Positions 9,974 to 19,238 of a stretch of 64,000 nt of DNA are shown here, in pieces (position 1 is the stretch's first letter; each line of letters begins with the position of its first letter). The position numbers and the translations under genes were made by a program. This DNA is from Candidatus Nitrosotalea sinensis (lineage in GTDB: Archaea > Thermoproteota > Nitrososphaeria > Nitrososphaerales > Nitrosopumilaceae). Where the stretch lies: assembly GCF_900143675.1 (NCBI RefSeq), contig NZ_FRFC01000003.1, forward strand, positions 498,095 to 562,094, given 5' to 3'. Under the pieces are notes generated by a model. That model was not told the origin of the DNA. It ran no database searches and worked only from the letters and a program-made list of their open reading frames with translations.

Positions 9974-11113
9974 TTATCGCTTGGACTGGCTTTTGAACTC
10001 ATGTAGTCTCTTAAGGTGAGATAACATTCTCTTAAAGACCTCAATGCTTCGCAAAAACTCGTCTGTTGAGACTCTCTCATCAATGGTGTGGGATGCATGC
10101 GGATCTCCAGGACCGTATGTCACAACAGGTATGTTCAAAGAGTTTCCTATGATGTTCATGTCTCCAGTTCCTGTTTTTCTTATCAGCTGCGGTTTTACCT
10201 TCTCTATATCCATTATTCCAAGTGTCAATGCACGGACAAGTGGTGAGCTATGCGGTGCCTCAAACGGTTCAGTTTCATCTATTACTGAATAAAATGCATT
10301 TACTCCCTGTTTTTTTGACACCTCTTCTACCGTTGTTGCAATTCTTTCTCCAACCATCTTGCAGTTCATGTTTACTGGAATTCTAATATCCATTATCGCA
10401 TCACACTCTAGCGGTGTTACATTGTGACTGGTTCCTCCCTTGATTTCAGTAAGTGATGATGTCAACATCATGCTCTTTGCAAGACCTTCCTGGTTTTGTT
10501 CTAGAGATTTTTTCAATGCATTTGTAAAAACGTAAGATTCTTCAATTGCATTTTTTGCAAGCCATGGTGCACTTGCATGTGCACTATCGCCAACATTTAC
10601 TCTGAGATTTATTGCAATTCTTCCCTTGTATGCAATTGTGATATTGTTTATTCCACTTGGCTCTCCAAATATTGCATAATCTATCTCCGGTTTTTGTTTT
10701 ACAAGATTTTTAATTCCAGTAGCGTTTCCTTCCTCATCTACTACTGCTGCAAATGTGACTGTACCGTTGTTGTTGCTCTGTACTGATGCTGCTGCTAAAA
10801 GCATAGATATCAATGGTGCCTTGGCATCTGATGCACCACGACCATAGATGTAACCATTCTCTGTCCTGACCTTTATCTTTCCTGGAACCGTATCCATGTG
10901 ACCGCACAACATTATTCTTGGATACCCAGATCCTTTGGTAGCAGTAAGATTTCCTACATCATCAATGCGAATATCATCAAATCCAAAATCATCACACTTG
11001 TCTGCTAAAAATTCTGCAAGAGGCTTTTCTGCAAGAGATGGCGTGTAAAGTCTTAGAGCCTTCTCTAGAACCTTTATTGAATATCTTGGTGTGCTTGTAA
11101 CTGACGAGTCCAA
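9974..11113 (-). CDS. lysK: [LysW]-lysine / [LysW]-ornithine hydrolase (M20 family)
   Basis: Final step of LysW-dependent synthesis: releases lysine or ornithine from the carrier. A 379-residue M20 metallopeptidase fold with metal-ligand motifs CGHMDTVPG (first His/Asp), GRGASDAKAP, the catalytic DEEG, GEPSG, and a C-terminal HTIDE block. TTG start 3 nt after the lysX stop, so translation is probably coupled. As only one lysK is present in this two-pathway cluster, it probably serves both the lysine and the arginine branches. Confidence 0.9.
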   Translation of the reverse strand: MDSSVTSTPRYSIKVLEKALRLYTPSLAEKPLAEFLADKCDDFGFDDIRIDDVGNLTATKGSGYPRIMLCGHMDTVPGKIKVRTENGYIYGRGASDAKAPLISMLLAAASVQSNNNGTVTFAAVVDEEGNATGIKNLVKQKPEIDYAIFGEPSGINNITIAYKGRIAINLRVNVGDSAHASAPWLAKNAIEESYVFTNALKKSLEQNQEGLAKSMMLTSSLTEIKGGTSHNVTPLECDAIMDIRIPVNMNCKMVGERIATTVEEVSKKQGVNAFYSVIDETEPFEAPHSSPLVRALTLGIMDIEKVKPQLIRKTGTGDMNIIGNSLNIPVVTYGPGDPHASHTIDERVSTDEFLRSIEVFKRMLSHLKRLHEFKSQSKR

Positions 11114-11116
11114 TTC

Positions 11117-11965
11117 TTACTTTCCTTGGTTTATTGCGTAATCAATCATCATTGCTGGTATATTTACGCCAGTAACTCTGACAGTATTTTTGTATTCCGT
11201 TGTATTGTTCACTTCATGTACAACAAGTCCCTGCTCCTTGCTTTCCATGAGATCTACCCCAACTATCTGTCCCTGGACTGCTTCTTTTGCCTTGATGCAA
11301 ATATCTTCAAGTTCTTTTGTGACCTTTAGCTCCTCTGCTCTTCCTCCAAGTGCCATGTTTGTCTTCCATTGATCATCACCCGAATAGCGATATATTGCAG
11401 CAACAACCTTGTCCCCAACTACAATGGCCCTAATGTCACGTGGAGGTCTGTTTACAAATTCTTCCAAATAGTATACTTGGTAAATTGGATACATGCTCTC
11501 TCTACTCTCTATGATTGCCTCTGCAGCTTCCTTGTCTTTTATCATGGCAATCATTCTTCCCCAACTTCCCACCGTCGGCTTGATCACCATTGGATATCCC
11601 TTTTTGTCCAGTAACTCTAGTGCAGATTCTTGTGAAAATGCAACTGCGCTAAATGGAGTTGGAATTCCTTTTTTTAGCAATAGCATGTGAGTAAATAATT
11701 TGTTTCCAGCAAATATACTGGTGTTCAATGAATTGATCACGTTTACACCCTTGCCTTCAAGTGCAGCAGTAGAGTGCAGACTGCGATAATAACTAACACA
11801 TCGTTGTATTACTGTTCCATAATCTTCTTTACTTTTATCTAAATTAATGGACAGATTCTTACAATCCACCATTTTTGCATCGATGCCTTTTTCCTTGGCA
11901 GCATCATGGAGTGCTTTTTCTTCCCACCTGATGGTATCGTAGAGAATCGATAAACCGGAACTCAC
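11117..11965 (-). CDS. lysX: Lysine biosynthesis ligase LysX (ATP-grasp, aminoadipate-LysW ligase)
   Basis: Joins the alpha-amino group of 2-aminoadipate to the C-terminal residue of the carrier LysW. A 282-residue ATP-grasp ligase with KPTVGSWGRMIAMI and a metal/substrate block VHEVNNTTEYKNTV. Assigned to the lysine branch because it lies between lysK and lysW1, downstream of homocitrate synthase. Its C-terminal block NTVRVTGVNIP resembles what I recall of Thermus LysX more than the paralogue at 17011. GTG start overlaps the lysW1 stop (GTGA). The LysX/ArgX distinction is inferred, not proven. Confidence 0.85.
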   Translation of the reverse strand: MSSGLSILYDTIRWEEKALHDAAKEKGIDAKMVDCKNLSINLDKSKEDYGTVIQRCVSYYRSLHSTAALEGKGVNVINSLNTSIFAGNKLFTHMLLLKKGIPTPFSAVAFSQESALELLDKKGYPMVIKPTVGSWGRMIAMIKDKEAAEAIIESRESMYPIYQVYYLEEFVNRPPRDIRAIVVGDKVVAAIYRYSGDDQWKTNMALGGRAEELKVTKELEDICIKAKEAVQGQIVGVDLMESKEQGLVVHEVNNTTEYKNTVRVTGVNIPAMMIDYAINQGK

Positions 11966-12126
11966 TGGCCCCAGTCCTCACCAACAGATTGTGCTGGTTT
12001 TAGCTCAAAGCCTGAGGATCCCTTGGCAAGCTCAAAACTTGCGCCACAGTCAGGGCATGTTACTATCTCTCCTTCCATCGAGTCCTTTGGAGGGTTGATG
12101 TTTGCGTCACATTCTAAACATTTCAT
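11962..12126 (-). CDS. lysW: Amino-group carrier protein LysW (lysine-side copy), C-terminus EDWGQ
   Basis: A 54-residue acidic carrier with a zinc-ribbon-like set CLEC (3-6) and CPDC near residues 24-27, ending EDWGQ. In characterised LysW the last residue is Glu, whose side-chain carboxyl forms the isopeptide bond with aminoadipate. Here the last codon is CAG (plus-strand ctg at 11965-11967), followed by TGA. The second copy at 17869 ends in GAG. Frame, length and family motifs are otherwise intact, and the gene overlaps lysX by 4 nt. Either Gln is deamidated, the codon is a sequence error, or this copy works differently. Confidence 0.88.
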   Translation of the reverse strand: MKCLECDANINPPKDSMEGEIVTCPDCGASFELAKGSSGFELKPAQSVGEDWGQ

Positions 12127-12198: not shown

Positions 12199-13389
12199 TC
12201 ACTTCTTTTTTCTTTCCATGCTCTCTTCTGACTTGATTATCTTTTGTTCTAACTTGTCATCAAGGGGTATCTCAAGCAAGTCTCCCATCCTCAAGTTCTT
12301 TAGCCCTGCAGCAACTGATTTGGCATGTTCCTCATTTTGGTCAAGACCTAAAAGCGACATTAGATATGCCGCACCATTCTTTCCTGCAAGCTCTCCGAAG
12401 ACTATTCTCCTCCTGTTTCCTACCACCTTTGGCTCTATTGGCTCATATGCTGCAGGGTTTCGCAGTATTGCAGCAAGGTGAGTTCCTGCCTTGTGCTTGT
12501 ATGCTGTAGGTCCTACAATTGGCTTTGAATCGTAAGGAACAATGTGTGTATATTGCTCGATGAGCCTTGATAGGTCCATTAGCATATCTAGCCTAAAGTT
12601 ATTTGGTGACTTGTATAGGTATGTCAATGCAACTGCAGTCTCTGCAAGTGCGGGTATCCCAGTTCTTTCTCCGATGCCATCTATTGTGGTGTGAATCTGG
12701 TCTGCTCCTCCATCACATCCTGCCAAAGCATTTGCAAGTGCAAGCCCAATATCGTTATGGCAGTGCACATCAAGTGCAGTATCAATCTCATCTCGGACTG
12801 ACTTGACAAAGTGATACATTCCATTTGGTCTCATTATTCCAACTGTATCTGGAAGACTGATTCTATCAACCCCTGCATCTGAAATCTCTTTGCACACTTG
12901 GAGCAAAAATTCTGGATCTGCCCTGCTTCCATCTTCGACTGTAAATCGCATCTTTAGTCCATGCGATTTTGCATATTCAACTGTTTCAACTGATCTTCGC
13001 AATGCTTCTTCTCTTGTAATCCTAAGCTTGTCCTTCATGTGAATCTCTGATATTCCAAGATATGTTGCCATCCATGTGGCATCACAATCAAGTGCAACAT
13101 CTACATCCTCTTTTAGCGCACGAACATGTGCTACAATGTCTGCCTTTAGGCCCTGCTTTATGATTGTCTTTGTTGCTTCCTTGTGATCAGGTGATACCAC
13201 TGGTGATATCTCTATTTGATCAACTCCAAAATAATCAAGCATCCATGCAATCTGGATTCTCTGCTTGTTTGAAAAAGTAACACCTGGGTGCTGTTCTCCT
13301 TCTCTTAGAGTACTGTCAAGTATTCTAATCTTCTTTGGCTTGACACCCATCTCATTATACTTGTATGCGTAAATGTTTGCATCATCCAT
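12199..13389 (-). CDS. lys20: Homocitrate synthase (LeuA/Lys20 family)
   Basis: Condenses acetyl-CoA with 2-oxoglutarate in the first step of aminoadipate-route lysine synthesis. It has 396 residues. A DRE-TIM barrel begins with RILDSTLREGEQHPG, has metal-binding HCHNDIGLALAN, and continues TTIDGIGERTGIPALAE, which resembles homocitrate rather than isopropylmalate synthases. Position supports this: it is the promoter-proximal gene of the lysW1-lysX-lysK run. An ATATTCG-type palindrome overlaps its TATA-like box. Isopropylmalate or citramalate synthase is the main alternative. Confidence 0.85.
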   Translation of the reverse strand: MDDANIYAYKYNEMGVKPKKIRILDSTLREGEQHPGVTFSNKQRIQIAWMLDYFGVDQIEISPVVSPDHKEATKTIIKQGLKADIVAHVRALKEDVDVALDCDATWMATYLGISEIHMKDKLRITREEALRRSVETVEYAKSHGLKMRFTVEDGSRADPEFLLQVCKEISDAGVDRISLPDTVGIMRPNGMYHFVKSVRDEIDTALDVHCHNDIGLALANALAGCDGGADQIHTTIDGIGERTGIPALAETAVALTYLYKSPNNFRLDMLMDLSRLIEQYTHIVPYDSKPIVGPTAYKHKAGTHLAAILRNPAAYEPIEPKVVGNRRRIVFGELAGKNGAAYLMSLLGLDQNEEHAKSVAAGLKNLRMGDLLEIPLDDKLEQKIIKSEESMERKKK

Positions 13390-13504: not shown

Positions 13505-13924
13505 TTAGGTTACTGTACGCAATATGATTACAGTATTGGTGTCAAACACACCTGGAACCTTTCGTAATTCATCAATGCAGACATTAATGTCTGTAATTGT
13601 TGGCGCCTTGATGATTGTAGCAATGTCATACTGGCCTGTTATCTCAAATACCGTGTGCACTCCTCTTAGCTTGACTAGCTTTGCAGAAACCTTTGATGTA
13701 TCAGTTGACGAATCAACTGATATCAAAATTATTGCACTAGTTGAATTGGCATCTCCTGTCTCTATTGTGAATTTTTTTATCGTACCGCCATCTGTTAAAT
13801 TTTTTACTCTTCTTCTGACTGCAGATTCTGACAGGCCAAGCTTTTGACCAATTTCTACAAAGGACTGTCGCGAGTCCTTCTTTAGCATGTCAATTATGGT
13901 GTCATCTGTCTTGTCTCTAGACAT
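13505..13924 (-). CDS. Lrp/AsnC family transcriptional regulator (LysM-like)
   Basis: A 139-residue full-length regulator. The N-terminal helix-turn-helix (about 5-60) contains QSFVEIGQKLGLSESAVRRR. The C-terminal RAM domain (about 65-139) contains GQYDIATIIKA. It is embedded between lysJ (8-nt overlap) and homocitrate synthase in the lysine/arginine run. In Sulfolobus the Lrp-type LysM controls lys genes, so this is the natural candidate regulator. Palindromic ATATTCG sites lie directly downstream. The identity of its ligand is inference. Confidence 0.88.
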   Translation of the reverse strand: MSRDKTDDTIIDMLKKDSRQSFVEIGQKLGLSESAVRRRVKNLTDGGTIKKFTIETGDANSTSAIILISVDSSTDTSKVSAKLVKLRGVHTVFEITGQYDIATIIKAPTITDINVCIDELRKVPGVFDTNTVIILRTVT

Positions 13925-15092
13925 TTCTTCTCTGTTCCTCTTTTGTTAGTATTATGTCTAGAGTTTCTAAAGCTTTGTTTATCTCAGATTCTGATATCAC
14001 GAGAGGCGGCAACAATCTGAGTATGTTCTTGCCCGAGTACAAGAGGAGCAAGTTGTTTGCAATTCCGTCAAATAGAATATCTTTGACCTCAAACTTCATC
14101 TCCACGCCAATCATCAATCCCTTTCCTCTTACTTCGCGTATTACTTTGTGCTTTTCTTTTAGTCTCTCAAGGCCTTCTCGGAACAATTTGCCGTTTTTCG
14201 CAGCATTTTCTACAAGTCCGTCTTCTGTTAAAGCATCTATTGCACCGATTCCAGCAGCACATGATAACGGGTTGCCACCAAATGTGGATGACTGCTCTCC
14301 CTTGCTAATTGACGCTAAAATATCTGGTCTGACAAGTGTTGCACCCATTGGTACACCACCTGCAATTCCTTTTGCAAGGCACATAATATCTGGTACCGTA
14401 TCCCAGTGCTGACTTGCCCACATCTTTCCTGTTCTTCCAAGTCCTGCCTGAATTTCATCAAATACCAAAACTATTCCCTTTTCGTCACACAACTTGCGCA
14501 CCTCTTGCAAAAATCCGTCCGGTGCAACATTGATTCCACTCTCGCCCTGGATTGGCTCCATTATTACCATTGCAGTATCTGAATCCACTACATTTCGCAA
14601 TGCCTCGATATCGCCAAATGATGAAAAGTTTACAGTATCTACAAGCGGCTCAAAGGCCTTGCGATATTTTTGATTAAATGTTACAGATAATGATCCTAGT
14701 GACTTGCCATGGTACGAGCCATTCATTGCAACCATTTTCTTCTTGCCTGTGAACTTGCGCGCAAACTTGATTGCAGCTTCTACTGCTTCTGTTCCGCTGT
14801 TATTCAGGTATACTTGGCTGAGATTTTTTGGTGCAATTTTGATGAGCTTTTCCAAAAACTCTTCGCGTGTCTTGTTGTATAGTGAACTGTGCACTGTAAT
14901 TATTTTGTCAAGTTGTACCTTGAGTGCCTTGACAACTCTTGGGTTGCAGTGACCCACAAGTGCGACACCATATCCTCCCATACAGTCAATATACTCTTTG
15001 CCGCTTGCATCCCATACCTTGGCTCCTAATCCTCTTTCTATTGTAACGGGAAATCTCTGGTAGATGCTTCCCATGAATTGATCTTCTGTCAT
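13917..15092 (-). CDS. lysJ: [LysW]-aminoadipate semialdehyde / glutamate semialdehyde aminotransferase
   Basis: A PLP-dependent class III aminotransferase of 391 residues. Visible blocks are GVALVGHCNPRVVKAL, SYHGKSLGS, the DEIQAGLGRTG block carrying the PLP-contacting aspartate, and the Schiff-base lysine in CLAKGIAGGVPMGA. It transfers an amino group from glutamate to the LysW-bound semialdehyde in both lysine and ornithine routes. The ATG at 15092 was preferred to an upstream TTG because it forms an ATGA overlap with the lysZ stop. It overlaps the Lrp gene by 8 nt. Confidence 0.9.
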   Translation of the reverse strand: MTEDQFMGSIYQRFPVTIERGLGAKVWDASGKEYIDCMGGYGVALVGHCNPRVVKALKVQLDKIITVHSSLYNKTREEFLEKLIKIAPKNLSQVYLNNSGTEAVEAAIKFARKFTGKKKMVAMNGSYHGKSLGSLSVTFNQKYRKAFEPLVDTVNFSSFGDIEALRNVVDSDTAMVIMEPIQGESGINVAPDGFLQEVRKLCDEKGIVLVFDEIQAGLGRTGKMWASQHWDTVPDIMCLAKGIAGGVPMGATLVRPDILASISKGEQSSTFGGNPLSCAAGIGAIDALTEDGLVENAAKNGKLFREGLERLKEKHKVIREVRGKGLMIGVEMKFEVKDILFDGIANNLLLLYSGKNILRLLPPLVISESEINKALETLDIILTKEEQRRNV

Positions 15093-15889
15093 CTTGTAAT
15101 CACCGTGCAATTATCATGATTTATTGCTGCTGATATTGGGTTTTCCTTTTTACCGTTTGCAACAAGTGCCTCTTTTACTCCCATCTCTAATGCCTCTGTG
15201 GCTGCAAGTATCTTCTTTTCCATTCCAAATCCAATTTTTGGCAAAATTGCCTTTGCTTCTGCAAGAGAAAGTTTTGTAACAAGTTTTTCCTCCATTAGCA
15301 ATCCGTCCACATTTGTCAAGAACAATATTTTGTCAGACTGCATCTTTCCTGCAACATACGCTGCTGCCCTGTCTCCATCCACATTGAGAAAGTCACACTC
15401 TTCACTTATTGCAATTGGAGAAATTACCGGTACATATCCTTGATCTAAAATGGAATGTACAAGCTTTGCATTTACGTCCTGGATTTTTCCAGTATATCCT
15501 CCATCTATTACCATCTTGCGACCCTTGTCATTCATTACAATTAGCTTCTTTTTTCTCTCTGCTTGAATTATCTTGCCGTCAACCCCTGACAATCCTACTG
15601 CATTGATTCCATGTTTTTGAAGCATGCCAACTATCATCTTGTTTATCTTTCCCGACATGACCATTGTGAAAATCTCTGCAGTCTCCTTGTCAGTAAACCT
15701 GCTCTTGATTCCTCCTGGTGATACTATGAATTTTTGTTCCTTTCCCAGAGCTTCTGATATCTTGGTTACTTCCTTTCCTCCACCGTGTACCAGAATTAGT
15801 TTCTCTTTTTCTGATACTTGCTTGATGTCAGATATTGTAGTGGGGTGAAGACCATCTACCACACTTCCTCCTATTTTTATTGTAATCAT
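15089..15889 (-). CDS. lysZ: [LysW]-aminoadipate/glutamate kinase
   Basis: Phosphorylates the LysW-attached aminoadipate (lysine route) or glutamate (arginine route). An amino-acid-kinase fold of 266 residues: glycine-rich IKIGGSVVDG (3-12), LVHGGGKEV (33-41), and an FLNVDGDRAAAYVAG block. It lies 4 nt after lysY and overlaps lysJ by 4 nt, so it is translationally coupled. A single copy in a cluster with two ligases implies a bifunctional role, as in Sulfolobus. Confidence 0.92.
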   Translation of the reverse strand: MITIKIGGSVVDGLHPTTISDIKQVSEKEKLILVHGGGKEVTKISEALGKEQKFIVSPGGIKSRFTDKETAEIFTMVMSGKINKMIVGMLQKHGINAVGLSGVDGKIIQAERKKKLIVMNDKGRKMVIDGGYTGKIQDVNAKLVHSILDQGYVPVISPIAISEECDFLNVDGDRAAAYVAGKMQSDKILFLTNVDGLLMEEKLVTKLSLAEAKAILPKIGFGMEKKILAATEALEMGVKEALVANGKKENPISAAINHDNCTVITR

Positions 15890-15893
15890 TTTT

Positions 15894-16946
15894 CTATACT
15901 GGAGTTAGCGGAGAATATGAAATTCCTTCCATCTCGTTGAATCCTGCCATTACATTCATGTTCTGAATGGCAGAGCCTGCAGCACCCTTCATGAGGTTGT
16001 CTGATGCAGATAAGACTACGAGTCTGTTATTGTCTTCATCAATGTCAAACCCAACATCACAAAAGTTCGAACCTACTACAAACTTTGGATCTGGGAATTT
16101 GTAAAATCCTTTCTTGTCCCTGATTAGCCTGACAAATCTTTCATTCTGGTATTGTTCACGGTACATCTTCCACAAGTCCATCTCACTTACCTGTTGCTTG
16201 AGAAAGACATGGTTTGTACACAATATTCCTCTTACAATGTCTACTGCGTGTGGACTCATTGATACTTTGATCTTGCTTCCTGCCGCCTGGCTTAGTTCCT
16301 GCTCTATCTCACCTGTGTGTCGGTGTTTTGCTGGCTTGTATGGTCTAATTACACCTGACCTCATGGCATGGTGTGTACCGGAGACTGTTCCAGCACCTGC
16401 GCCTGAAGAGCCAATTTTGGAATCAACCACAATGTGTTCTGTATCAATTATCTTCTTTTTGATTAGCGGATACAATCCAAGAATTGATGTTACTGCCATG
16501 CATCCAGGACACGAGACTATCTGAGATTTTTTTATCTCTTCTCTGTGAAGCTCTGGTACTCCAAAGACTGATTTTTCTAGCAACTCTGGGTGTGGGTGTT
16601 GCCATCCGTACCACTTGTCATAATCTGCAGGGTTGTGGAGCCTGTAATCTGCGCTAAGGTCAATTACCTTCATTCCTCGGTCGTATAATGCCTTGACAAT
16701 ATCTACTGCAGTTCCATGTGGTACTGCTGTAAAGACCAAGTCACACTTGTCTGTTAGTTTGTCATAATCTAATTCTGAAAATGTAAGATCTGTAAATCCC
16801 TTCAAGCTTGGCTGAACTCGAGATATGTATTCTCCGACATACTGTCGAGAGGTAACCATTGTGATTTCTGCATGTGGGTGACTAACAAGTAACCTAAGGA
16901 TTTCTCCACCGACATAACCTGATGCACCGACCACACCTACTCTCAT
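15894..16946 (-). CDS. lysY: [LysW]-aminoadipyl / glutamyl phosphate reductase
   Basis: NADPH-dependent reduction of the LysW-bound acyl phosphate to the semialdehyde. A 350-residue ArgC-family protein. The Rossmann motif VGVVGASGYVGGEILRLL is at the start, the catalytic cysteine lies in VSCPGCMAVTS, and the HRHTGEIEQEL block follows. The gap to argX upstream is 64 nt and to lysZ 4 nt. Like lysZ and lysJ it is single-copy here and probably serves both pathways. Confidence 0.92.
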   Translation of the reverse strand: MRVGVVGASGYVGGEILRLLVSHPHAEITMVTSRQYVGEYISRVQPSLKGFTDLTFSELDYDKLTDKCDLVFTAVPHGTAVDIVKALYDRGMKVIDLSADYRLHNPADYDKWYGWQHPHPELLEKSVFGVPELHREEIKKSQIVSCPGCMAVTSILGLYPLIKKKIIDTEHIVVDSKIGSSGAGAGTVSGTHHAMRSGVIRPYKPAKHRHTGEIEQELSQAAGSKIKVSMSPHAVDIVRGILCTNHVFLKQQVSEMDLWKMYREQYQNERFVRLIRDKKGFYKFPDPKFVVGSNFCDVGFDIDEDNNRLVVLSASDNLMKGAAGSAIQNMNVMAGFNEMEGISYSPLTPV

Positions 16947-17010: not shown

Positions 17011-17868
17011 TTATCGCTTGGCGTAGCTTATTGCGTAATCGATCATTTCTTTTGGTATGTTTTTCTTGGAAACTTTTGCCATTCCCTTAAATTCTACAGT
17101 GTTGTTTACTTCATGCACCACAAATCCGCGTTTTTCGTCTTCCATGACATCGATTCCAAGTATTCCTCCGCCTACTGCCTTGGATGCTTTCATGCAAATG
17201 TCTTCTAATTCCTTTGTTATCTCACATGCAATAGGCTCTGCACCAAGTGCAATGTTTGTCTTGAATCCTCCTGATGATGTCCTATACATTGCAGCGATCA
17301 GATTGTCCCCTATTGATATTGCCCTGATGTCTCTTGGTGGGCGCGGAACTACCTCTTGTAGGTAGTATATTCTGTCTAGAGGGCCATCATTTAGTTCTCG
17401 AACCTCAATTATGGCATCAGCGGTCTCTCTGTCCCTCAAAGGCACTATACCTCTTCCCCAACTGCCTATGATTGGCTTTATCACAAGTGGATATCCATGC
17501 TTTTCCAGTGTCTCCACTGCTGCCTCTGATGAAAATGAAAAGTATGTCTTGGGTGTTGGTACGTTATGCTTTTGCAATAACAAAGATGTAATCATCTTGT
17601 TTCCACAATTGTTTGCTACTTCGGTTCTATTGAGTACTGGAATATCTAAAAATTCAAGAGCTGCTGTAAAATGAAGACCACGAAAGTAACTTACGCATCT
17701 TTCTAACACTACATCTCCAAAATCGTAGTCGCTTCTCTTACTTTCAGTGGTAAATTGGGTAGTCTTTGCATCGATCATCTTCGTATCGTGTCCTAGCTCG
17801 ATTGCTTTTTGCTCAAGCATCTTCTCTTCGAGTCTTACTCTATCAAACACGATGCGAACCTTGGGCAT
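17011..17868 (-). CDS. argX: Glutamate-LysW ligase ArgX (ATP-grasp, LysX paralogue)
   Basis: A 285-residue ATP-grasp ligase homologous to LysX at 11117 (KPIIGSWGRGIVPL, DVMEDEKRGFVVHEVNN). It attaches glutamate to LysW in arginine synthesis. Assignment to the arginine branch rests on position: it follows lysW2 and argG directly. It also differs in the substrate-side block (TVEFKGMAKVSKKNIP against TTEYKNTVRVTGVNIP). Its ATG follows the lysW2 stop with no gap (TAAATG), so translation is coupled. Specificity needs a structure-based comparison. Confidence 0.85.
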   Translation of the reverse strand: MPKVRIVFDRVRLEEKMLEQKAIELGHDTKMIDAKTTQFTTESKRSDYDFGDVVLERCVSYFRGLHFTAALEFLDIPVLNRTEVANNCGNKMITSLLLQKHNVPTPKTYFSFSSEAAVETLEKHGYPLVIKPIIGSWGRGIVPLRDRETADAIIEVRELNDGPLDRIYYLQEVVPRPPRDIRAISIGDNLIAAMYRTSSGGFKTNIALGAEPIACEITKELEDICMKASKAVGGGILGIDVMEDEKRGFVVHEVNNTVEFKGMAKVSKKNIPKEMIDYAISYAKR

Positions 17869-18036
17869 TTACTCTCCCCAATCTTCGCCGACTTTCTCAG
17901 CATGCTTTAATTCACAAACGCTGCCATTTTTGGAAGCAATCTCAAAATCTGCTCCACAGTCTGGACATGAGACTAACTCTCCAACACTTGCATCGTCTGG
18001 AATTTTTATTATTGCATCACATTCTGGGCAATTCAT
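17869..18036 (-). CDS. lysW: Amino-group carrier protein LysW (arginine-side copy), C-terminus EDWGE
   Basis: A 55-residue carrier with CPEC (3-6) and CPDC in the middle, ending EDWGE. The terminal Glu that accepts glutamate or aminoadipate is present. The ATG at 18036 is preferred over an in-frame GTG at 18051: GAGGTGA lies 11 nt before the ATG, and the shorter form has the family length and the usual N-terminus. The Shine-Dalgarno overlaps the argG stop. It is a paralogue of the 11962 copy but only moderately similar, so it is not a recent duplicate. Confidence 0.9.
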   Translation of the reverse strand: MNCPECDAIIKIPDDASVGELVSCPDCGADFEIASKNGSVCELKHAEKVGEDWGE

Positions 18037-18047
18037 TCTTTGATCAT

Positions 18048-19238
18048 TCACCTCTTTTTTAGTAATTTATTAGCTTCTGTTGATTGAAGCCCCCACAGCT
18101 CAACGAATCCTTTTCCAAGAGTTTGGTCAAAAGTAGAACCAGCTCCATATGTTGCCAGATCATGGCTGTACAATGAATATTCTGATTTTCGTCCAACAAC
18201 TCGAAGGCTTCCTTTGAACATTTTGAGCTTGACAGTTCCGCTAACCCTCTTCTGTGTAGCATTGATAAACATATCTAAATCATTTTTGAGTGGATCTTGC
18301 CACAAACCAGAATATGCTAACCATGACCATTCTGAATCAACCATTGATTTGAATTTCAATTCATGCTTTGTGAGAACCATCTTTTCAAGATCTGTATGGG
18401 CCTCTATGATGCATGTAGCACCTGGGGTTTCATAGACTTCGCGTGACTTTATTCCTACAACCCTGTCTTCGATATGGTCTACAATTCCGACTCCACTTGC
18501 GCCTGCCTTTTTGTTAATGTACTTGATTAATTCAATTGGATGCAGTCTCTTTCCGTCAACTGCAACGGGAATTCCATTCTCAAATTTAATCTCGATATAC
18601 TGTGGCTTGTCAGGCAAATTCTTTGTCTTTACCCAGATGAATGCATCATCTGGTGGCTCTGAGAACGAGTCCTCCATGTCTCCACCTTCAATTGCTCGTC
18701 CCCACAAGTTCTGGTCTATGCTAAATCTTTTTGCAGTGGTATCAATTGAGATGTTGTGTCGCTTGGCATATTCTAGCTCTACGTTACGAGTAAGGTTGAG
18801 ATCACGTATTGGTGCAATGATTGGAAGATTAGAGCCTGAACGGTATGTCACATCAAATCTTACCTGGTCGTTGCCTTTTCCGGTACAACCATGTGCAAGT
18901 GCAGATGCATTTTCTTTTCTTGCAACTTCTACAACTTTTTGTGCAATCAGTGGACGCGCAAGTGCTGTTGCAAGACAATATTTTTTCTGGTACAGCGCAT
19001 TTGCCTTTATTGCAGGAAAGATAAAACTATCAACAAATTCTTGTCGTGCGTCAATATTGTAATGTTTCAAGACTCCAAGACTTTTTGCCTTGGCTGAAAT
19101 CTTTTTGAGATTGTCTTCTTGGCCTACATCTACTGTAACTGTGACAACATCCAGGTTGTGTTTTTCTTGTAGATATTTTATCACAACAGATGTATCCAGT
19201 CCGCCAGAGAAAGCAAGAACAGCTTTTCCTTTTATCAT
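18048..19238 (-). CDS. argG: Argininosuccinate synthase
   Basis: ATP-dependent condensation of citrulline and aspartate. It has 396 residues, with P-loop-type AFSGGLDTSVVIKYL at the N-terminus, HGCTGKGNDQVRFD and SIDQNLWGRAIEGGDMED, all family hallmarks. It is the first gene of the minus-strand arginine run and carries the most elaborate upstream region (a 9-bp inverted repeat flanking the TATA-like box). The partner argH is not in this window. Confidence 0.96.
   Translation of the reverse strand: MIKGKAVLAFSGGLDTSVVIKYLQEKHNLDVVTVTVDVGQEDNLKKISAKAKSLGVLKHYNIDARQEFVDSFIFPAIKANALYQKKYCLATALARPLIAQKVVEVARKENASALAHGCTGKGNDQVRFDVTYRSGSNLPIIAPIRDLNLTRNVELEYAKRHNISIDTTAKRFSIDQNLWGRAIEGGDMEDSFSEPPDDAFIWVKTKNLPDKPQYIEIKFENGIPVAVDGKRLHPIELIKYINKKAGASGVGIVDHIEDRVVGIKSREVYETPGATCIIEAHTDLEKMVLTKHELKFKSMVDSEWSWLAYSGLWQDPLKNDLDMFINATQKRVSGTVKLKMFKGSLRVVGRKSEYSLYSHDLATYGAGSTFDQTLGKGFVELWGLQSTEANKLLKKR

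Follow-up and report, generated by a model that had tools for sequence, protein, structure and literature searches.

Amino-group carrier proteins of the LysW family that are encoded with a C-terminal glutamine in place of the attachment glutamate

Introduction

Lysine and arginine are synthesized on LysW in major groups of archaea, including the ammonia oxidizers, and the Glu at its C terminus is regarded as its defining attachment site. In the Natrinema homolog ArgW, Glu54 is the measured attachment site and an E54A variant is an arginine auxotroph, according to the accessible sections of the report (PMC10433800). The metabolic model of Nitrosopumilus maritimus likewise assumes ordinary LysW chemistry in the part of that paper available to us (PMC6038301). 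A different small protein, Pup, can carry a Gln, and the portion consulted of a study of its deamidase Dop describes an enzyme with two activities, deamidation of Pup-Gln and cleavage of Pup from its conjugates (PMC8599861). The open-access literature yielded no mention of an EDWGQ ending, although earlier mention in subscription papers is possible. Deamidation of an amino-group carrier protein was likewise not found in the open-access literature, which was covered partly by titles and the beginnings of abstracts. Here, we describe a LysW that is encoded with Gln as its last residue, follow that ending through related and distant genomes, and weigh how such a carrier might be used.

Results

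The lysW1 locus. The window, by which we mean the whole 64,000-nucleotide stretch of Candidatus Nitrosotalea sinensis DNA that was analyzed, contains a minus-strand lysine/arginine cluster in the order argG, lysW2, argX, lysY, lysZ, lysJ, an Lrp-type regulator, a homocitrate synthase-like gene, lysW1, lysX, and lysK. The features are as follows.

9974 to 11113, minus strand: lysK, M20 metallo-hydrolase releasing lysine or ornithine from LysW, candidate LysW deamidase (TIGR01902, 259.7 bits; PF01546; PDB 5xoy, [LysW]-lysine hydrolase)
11117 to 11965, minus strand: lysX, ATP-grasp ligase loading LysW, with a GSWGR motif (TIGR02144, 340.6 bits, cutoff 275.6; alignment)
11962 to 12126, minus strand: lysW1, zinc-ribbon amino-group carrier protein of 54 residues (NF041070, 82.8 bits, cutoff 75; PF21344, 43.7 bits, cutoff 27)
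11965 to 11967, minus strand: final sense codon of lysW1, CAG (Gln) instead of GAG (Glu) (sequence; conserved across the family)
12199 to 13389, minus strand: homocitrate synthase-like gene upstream of lysW1, named from its context (TIGR02146, 379.1 bits, under the cutoff of 413.55)
13917 to 15110, minus strand: lysJ-type aminotransferase (TIGR00707)
15089 to 15889, minus strand: lysZ-type [LysW]-aminoadipate/glutamate kinase (NF010662, 291.1 bits, cutoff 194)
15894 to 16946, minus strand: lysY/argC-type reductase (TIGR01850, 427.4 bits)
17011 to 17868, minus strand: argX-type LysX paralog of the arginine side, beside lysW2 and argG (TIGR02144, 296.2 bits)
17869 to 18036, minus strand: lysW2 (argW), C terminus EDWGE (translation; NF041070, 87.3 bits)
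18048 to 19238, minus strand: argG, argininosuccinate synthase (NF001770, 532.3 bits)

The genome encodes two LysW proteins in total, LysW1 and LysW2. The initial annotation had pointed to a difference between their ends, and sequence and translation bear it out: lysW1 closes with GGC CAG TGA (EDWGQ), the CAG at 11967-11965 and the TGA at 11964-11962, whereas LysW2 closes with EDWGE. LysW1 contains the zinc ribbon, MKCLECD...VTCPDCG (CxxC...CxxC), which is kept in relatives, and it fell short of the narrower lysW model TIGR01206 (26.2 bits against a cutoff of 53.2). It is thus a LysW homolog by profile, but the attachment Glu, a defining functional feature, is not encoded. The start of lysX overlaps the lysW1 stop by 4 bases, so that the LysX-type ligase is directly adjacent, and the cluster is kept in relatives. 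The G of the CAG codon also belongs to lysX, whose start codon GTG (11965-11963) begins with it; since a GAG codon would leave an identical GTG, the overlap does not force the Gln.

The Gln ending is conserved within the order. The pattern EDWGQ followed by a stop was sought in 400 genomes of the order, with the reversed pattern as a control. It matched in 277 genomes, and the control matched in none of the 400. Gln-ended LysW occurred in 205 of 232 genomes in the family of the window (f1), in 66 of 70 in family f8, and in 6 of 7 in family f2, all three presumably ammonia oxidizers; the pattern was absent from all 91 genomes in fourteen other families of the order. Consistent Glu among relatives, which the initial annotation had named as a sign of a local error, was therefore not seen in f1. 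Further genomes of the window's genus (e.g., G087, G132, G162, and G180) share the CAG TGA end. EDWGE followed by a stop matched in 309 of the same 400 genomes, most f1 genomes encoding a Glu-ended LysW as well. In the aligned relatives, Gln-ended carriers retain the zinc-ribbon cysteines and EDWG, and every carrier residue besides the last is kept.

Gln and Glu have been exchanged repeatedly on both carriers. LysW loci were read from 59 genomes, including that of the window; these were picked partly for odd counts and so give no frequencies. All 108 LysW proteins read end in Gln (50; CAG or CAA) or Glu (58; GAG or GAA) and in nothing else. All four combinations of lysine-side and arginine-side endings occur. 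Gln/Glu is found in most of f1 and in genus g23 of f2, and Glu/Glu in five f1 genomes of genus g7 and in genus g50 of f2. Gln/Gln occurs in the f8 genera g41, g51 (which we take to be Nitrososphaera-like), g62, and g63 and in two of three genomes of the f1 genus g8, and Glu/Gln in the f8 genera g53 and g57. Outside f1, f2, and f8, the pair was Glu/Glu wherever both LysW genes were read. On a tree built quickly from six proteins joined end to end, with 60 rows, several of them biased in composition or under half filled, the ending changed at least six times on the lysine side and at least three times on the arginine side. Gln is therefore not a mark of the lysine side. The initial description of it as lysine-side holds for the window; as a rule it fails, since elsewhere Gln is on the arginine side, on both carriers, or on a single shared one.

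The four combinations occur in genomes with one shared LysZ/LysY/LysJ/LysK set. Given the interchange on both carriers, these shared downstream enzymes suggest that both endings reach the same loaded form. EDWG followed by any residue and a stop was also sought in 121 genomes; among the matches listed, there were endings in Asp, Val, Tyr, Cys, and Arg, and those checked were not LysW. Given the limitation to Glu and Gln, the last residue must offer a gamma-carbonyl.

Two assemblies or groups stood apart. One 4.9-Mb assembly with 6% contamination (G207) contains two lysine-side clusters with differing endings (L108 and L109) and is probably a mixed bin. In the f1 genus g8, the second LysW was found without ArgX or argG alongside (L306 and L307), unlike in the rest of the family.

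Gln-ended LysW is often the sole carrier. Genomes of genus g29, presumably Nitrosocosmicus-like, encode a single, Gln-ended LysW, and three of them (G007, G041, and G049) are single contigs. LysX adjoins this LysW, and ArgX is located beside argG in the same cluster (in the clusters of G041 and G049). At two g29 loci (L185 and L186), ArgX adjoins argG without a LysW of its own, and the two ligases seem to share a single LysW. A Glu-ended LysW was not found in g29, g51, families f25, f30, and f48, or several bacteria, where LysX is beside the Gln-ended one.

Outside the order, the Gln pattern matched in 15 of 250 genomes of the phylum. Fourteen of the matches are LysW by reading (G435 and G449 by position); that in G427 is a chance match, the LysW of this genome ending in Glu. 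A second match in G007 was dropped because TGG is not a stop. LysW was single and Gln-ended in 8 of 8, 4 of 4, and 1 of 1 genomes with Gln in f25, f30, and f48, respectively, and the f51 genome contains one Gln-ended and one Glu-ended LysW. In several of the Gln-ended proteins (L181 to L183 and L188 in f25; L178 in f30), a zinc-binding Cys position is occupied by His (ELFEHEECG or ELFEHQDCG).

A scan of named genomes for AEDWGQ followed by a stop gave 61 stretches, of which 42 were rejected as chance matches and 19 are LysW, a floor because the pattern skips EDWGQ carriers without the preceding Ala. The archaea among the 19 include Terraquivivens, Caldarchaeum, Heimdallarchaeota, and others; the bacterial labels are Sulfitobacter, Wirthbacteria, Krumholzibacteriota, Gemmatimonadetes, Holophagae, Acanthopleuribacter pedis, and Sulfidibacter corallicola. 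A LysX-type frame was present in the fetched DNA for 18 of the 19, the remaining LysW being located at the end of its stretch. In all 13 named genomes searched, three of which repeat genomes in the f25/f30/f48 count, the Gln-ended LysW is the only one, with two further weak partial matches in one genome. Among named strains, Sulfidibacter corallicola M133 and Acanthopleuribacter pedis KCTC 12899 have a Gln-ended LysW as their sole carrier. Such carriers are located inside lys operons (in Caldarchaeum, Terraquivivens, and bacteria), and the complete chromosome of S. corallicola has its sole, Gln-ended carrier together with the set LysW-LysX-LysY-LysZ-LysJ.

The reverse situation is found in one f1 genome assembled as a single contig (G246), in which lysX and lysK are present and the single LysW ends in Glu. 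No lysW1 was recognizable there between the homocitrate synthase gene and lysX (L305). It therefore appears that a LysX of Gln-lineage origin can work with a Glu-ended partner.

Search for a deamidase or an adapted ligase. No Gln-specific gene was found among the candidates tried. A Dop/PafA-like deamidase (PF03136) was absent from all 15 genomes searched, including that of the window, with Corynebacterium glutamicum positive as a control. The protein-glutamine deamidase CheD was present in 4 of the 15 and absent from the window's genome and most Gln-ended ones. About 4 kb beyond lysK, the window contains a standalone class-I glutamine amidotransferase (PF00117; 5204-5893, minus strand), with close relatives in most ammonia-oxidizer-type genomes tried and absent from two. 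As a candidate deamidase it was rejected: close relatives occur in most of the Gln-ended genomes tried, but the Gln-ended genomes G096, G239, G414, G517, and G407 contain only distant paralogs, and a close relative is also present in the Glu-only genome G003.

LysX keeps the motifs of its Glu-using relatives, and no column of the lysine-side LysX alignment separates Gln from Glu partners. Four candidate signals were discarded. A loop deletion before WKTN seemed to track Glu partners in five genomes, but it was also found in Gln-partnered LysX of the same genus (13 of 20 fetched; the motif was unmatched in the other 7). The Arg of the ARGG motif is replaced by Leu in 43 of 43 lysine-side LysX proteins of f1, f2, and f8, including Glu-partnered ones, and LysX of Wirthbacteria and Krumholzibacteriota keeps it with a Gln-ended LysW alongside, so that its loss does not track Gln. 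Column 10 of ArgX (Lys with Gln, Arg with Glu) is confounded, as all Gln rows are from f8. A replacement of LysK at the base of the clade proved to be a divergence step like that of LysY, with no special signal.

Discussion

The Natrinema data, in which Glu54 bears the amino acid and E54A abolishes arginine synthesis (PMC10433800, sections consulted), mean that a sole carrier ending in Gln must either undergo conversion or work in some other way. Conversion to Glu is favored by the restriction of endings to Glu and Gln, by the shared downstream enzymes, and by the lack of any lysine-side LysX column that tracks the ending. We consider it slightly better than an even chance that LysW1 is a working carrier encoded in a pro-form, its Gln changed to Glu once before a normal cycle, with LysK as the most parsimonious deamidase. 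The side-chain amide of the terminal Gln would be hydrolyzed to Glu before loading, and LysX would then place aminoadipate on the gamma-carboxyl of LysW-Glu. LysZ, LysY, and LysJ would modify the loaded aminoadipate, and LysK would free lysine, leaving the carrier for reuse. One deamidation turnover per carrier molecule would be sufficient.

We infer both the deamidation and its agent. LysK, a member of a family (PDB 5xoy) that hydrolyzes the gamma-amide joining the last residue of LysW to lysine or ornithine, is the simplest candidate because it already acts on a gamma-amide at the same residue. The lysK gene follows lysX in the window and in the ammonia-oxidizer relatives read with enough flank. 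Against LysK, M20 enzymes usually require a carboxylate on the amino acid that they release, and ammonia has none. Further, the 15 kb read from the f48 genome showed no LysK near LysW, and neither did the 20 kb surrounding LysW that were read for Sulfidibacter, Acanthopleuribacter, and Holophagae. Dop offers a precedent for such a dual role, since conjugate cleavage and Gln deamidation are attributed to one enzyme in the consulted part of that study (PMC8599861). Pup-like deamidation had been raised in the initial annotation; deamidation ahead of loading fits best, whereas the absence of a Dop/PafA relative makes the parallel one of logic and not of homologous machinery. The steady Gln/Glu split of f1 is left unexplained if both endings are equivalent, which counts against a pro-carrier.

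It is unlikely that the Gln is used directly. According to the initial annotation, LysX cannot activate a Gln amide, which is a reasonable view on chemical grounds. LysX might activate the amide oxygen by phosphorylation or exchange the amide ammonia for the amino acid in an ATP-driven transamidation, and the carrier would then keep its Gln while amino acids are made on it, no deamidation step being needed. We know of no direct carboxamide activation by LysX-type ATP-grasp ligases. The discovery of only Glu and Gln as endings is compatible with direct use, as is the origin of Gln in several lineages without one common extra gene among those tried, and an attack of the Pup-Gln side-chain amide oxygen on ATP, discussed for Dop in the consulted portion of PMC8599861, is a proposed precedent. 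The retention in LysX of Glu-user motifs, with no lysine-side column following the ending, argues against this, as does the use of Glu partners by closely similar LysX proteins in close relatives.

A free C-terminal carboxylate exists with any side chain, and other RimK-family ligases are understood to make alpha-linked glutamate bonds. In Gln-ended carriers, the last residue might accordingly bear the amino acid on its alpha-carboxyl, the side chain remaining free. We regard this as improbable: an irrelevant side chain should have admitted other residues, none of which was found among the LysW proteins checked, and one LysZ/LysY/LysJ/LysK set would need to accept both alpha- and gamma-linked substrates in one cell.

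The changed role entertained in the initial annotation, in which LysW1 would stay unloaded while Glu-ended LysW2 serves both ligases, is quite improbable. The presence of a Glu-ended LysW in most f1 genomes would allow it, and G246, with LysX, a single Glu-ended LysW, and no recognizable lysW1, suggests that one carrier can serve both ligases. However, LysX adjoins a Gln-ended LysW in g29, g51, f25, f30, f48, and several bacteria in which no Glu-ended LysW was found, closed and complete genomes with LysX in the lys cluster among them, and LysW1-type proteins retain every carrier residue apart from the final one.

In archaea and many bacteria, Gln-tRNA arises by conversion of Glu-tRNA(Gln), and the Gln-ended lineages that we recognize probably use this indirect route. 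A small share of CAG codons might therefore be read as Glu, and trace LysW-Glu could be enough since the carrier is recycled. We think this very unlikely, as elongation factors reject mischarged tRNA and an inefficient ending would hardly be expected to stay conserved for so long. A sequencing or assembly error, the last option of the initial annotation, can be dismissed, because the codon recurs in most f1 genomes and also in closed genomes from other families, with no control matches.

For genomes whose sole LysW ends in Gln, the accepted scheme lacks a step: either an unassigned protein-glutamine deamidation or an amide-using ligase. The recurrence of the swap in archaea and bacteria, often in a sole carrier, indicates that cells must possess some means, so far undescribed, of activating or using the Gln.

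Comparison with known systems

LysW1 shares with LysW/ArgW of Thermus, Sulfolobus, Thermococcus, and Natrinema (NF041070, PF21344) the zinc ribbon, the EDWG motif, and a location beside LysX/ArgX within a lys/arg cluster. In the proteins that have been studied, the terminal residue is the Glu carrying the amino acid, as described in the sections consulted (PMC10433800), whereas the encoded last residue of LysW1 is Gln. LysW differs from Pup as an unrelated zinc-ribbon protein that carries metabolites, not target proteins, and a Pup_ligase-family gene was found in 0 of 15 genomes searched. In PEARL peptide-scaffold biosynthesis, the amino acid is joined via the alpha-carboxyl, and the gene set differs from that of the LysW system. 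In species without the PupQ type, Pup is encoded with Glu. PEARL resembles the LysW system in that amino acids, there 3-thia-alpha-amino acids, are made on the C terminus of a carrier peptide (PMC9303977). The likeness to PupQ-type Pup with Dop is that of a small protein with an encoded C-terminal Gln, which in Pup must become Glu before ligation, as stated in the portion consulted (PMC8599861). Gln-ended LysW gives a second, unrelated case of this Pup-Gln logic.
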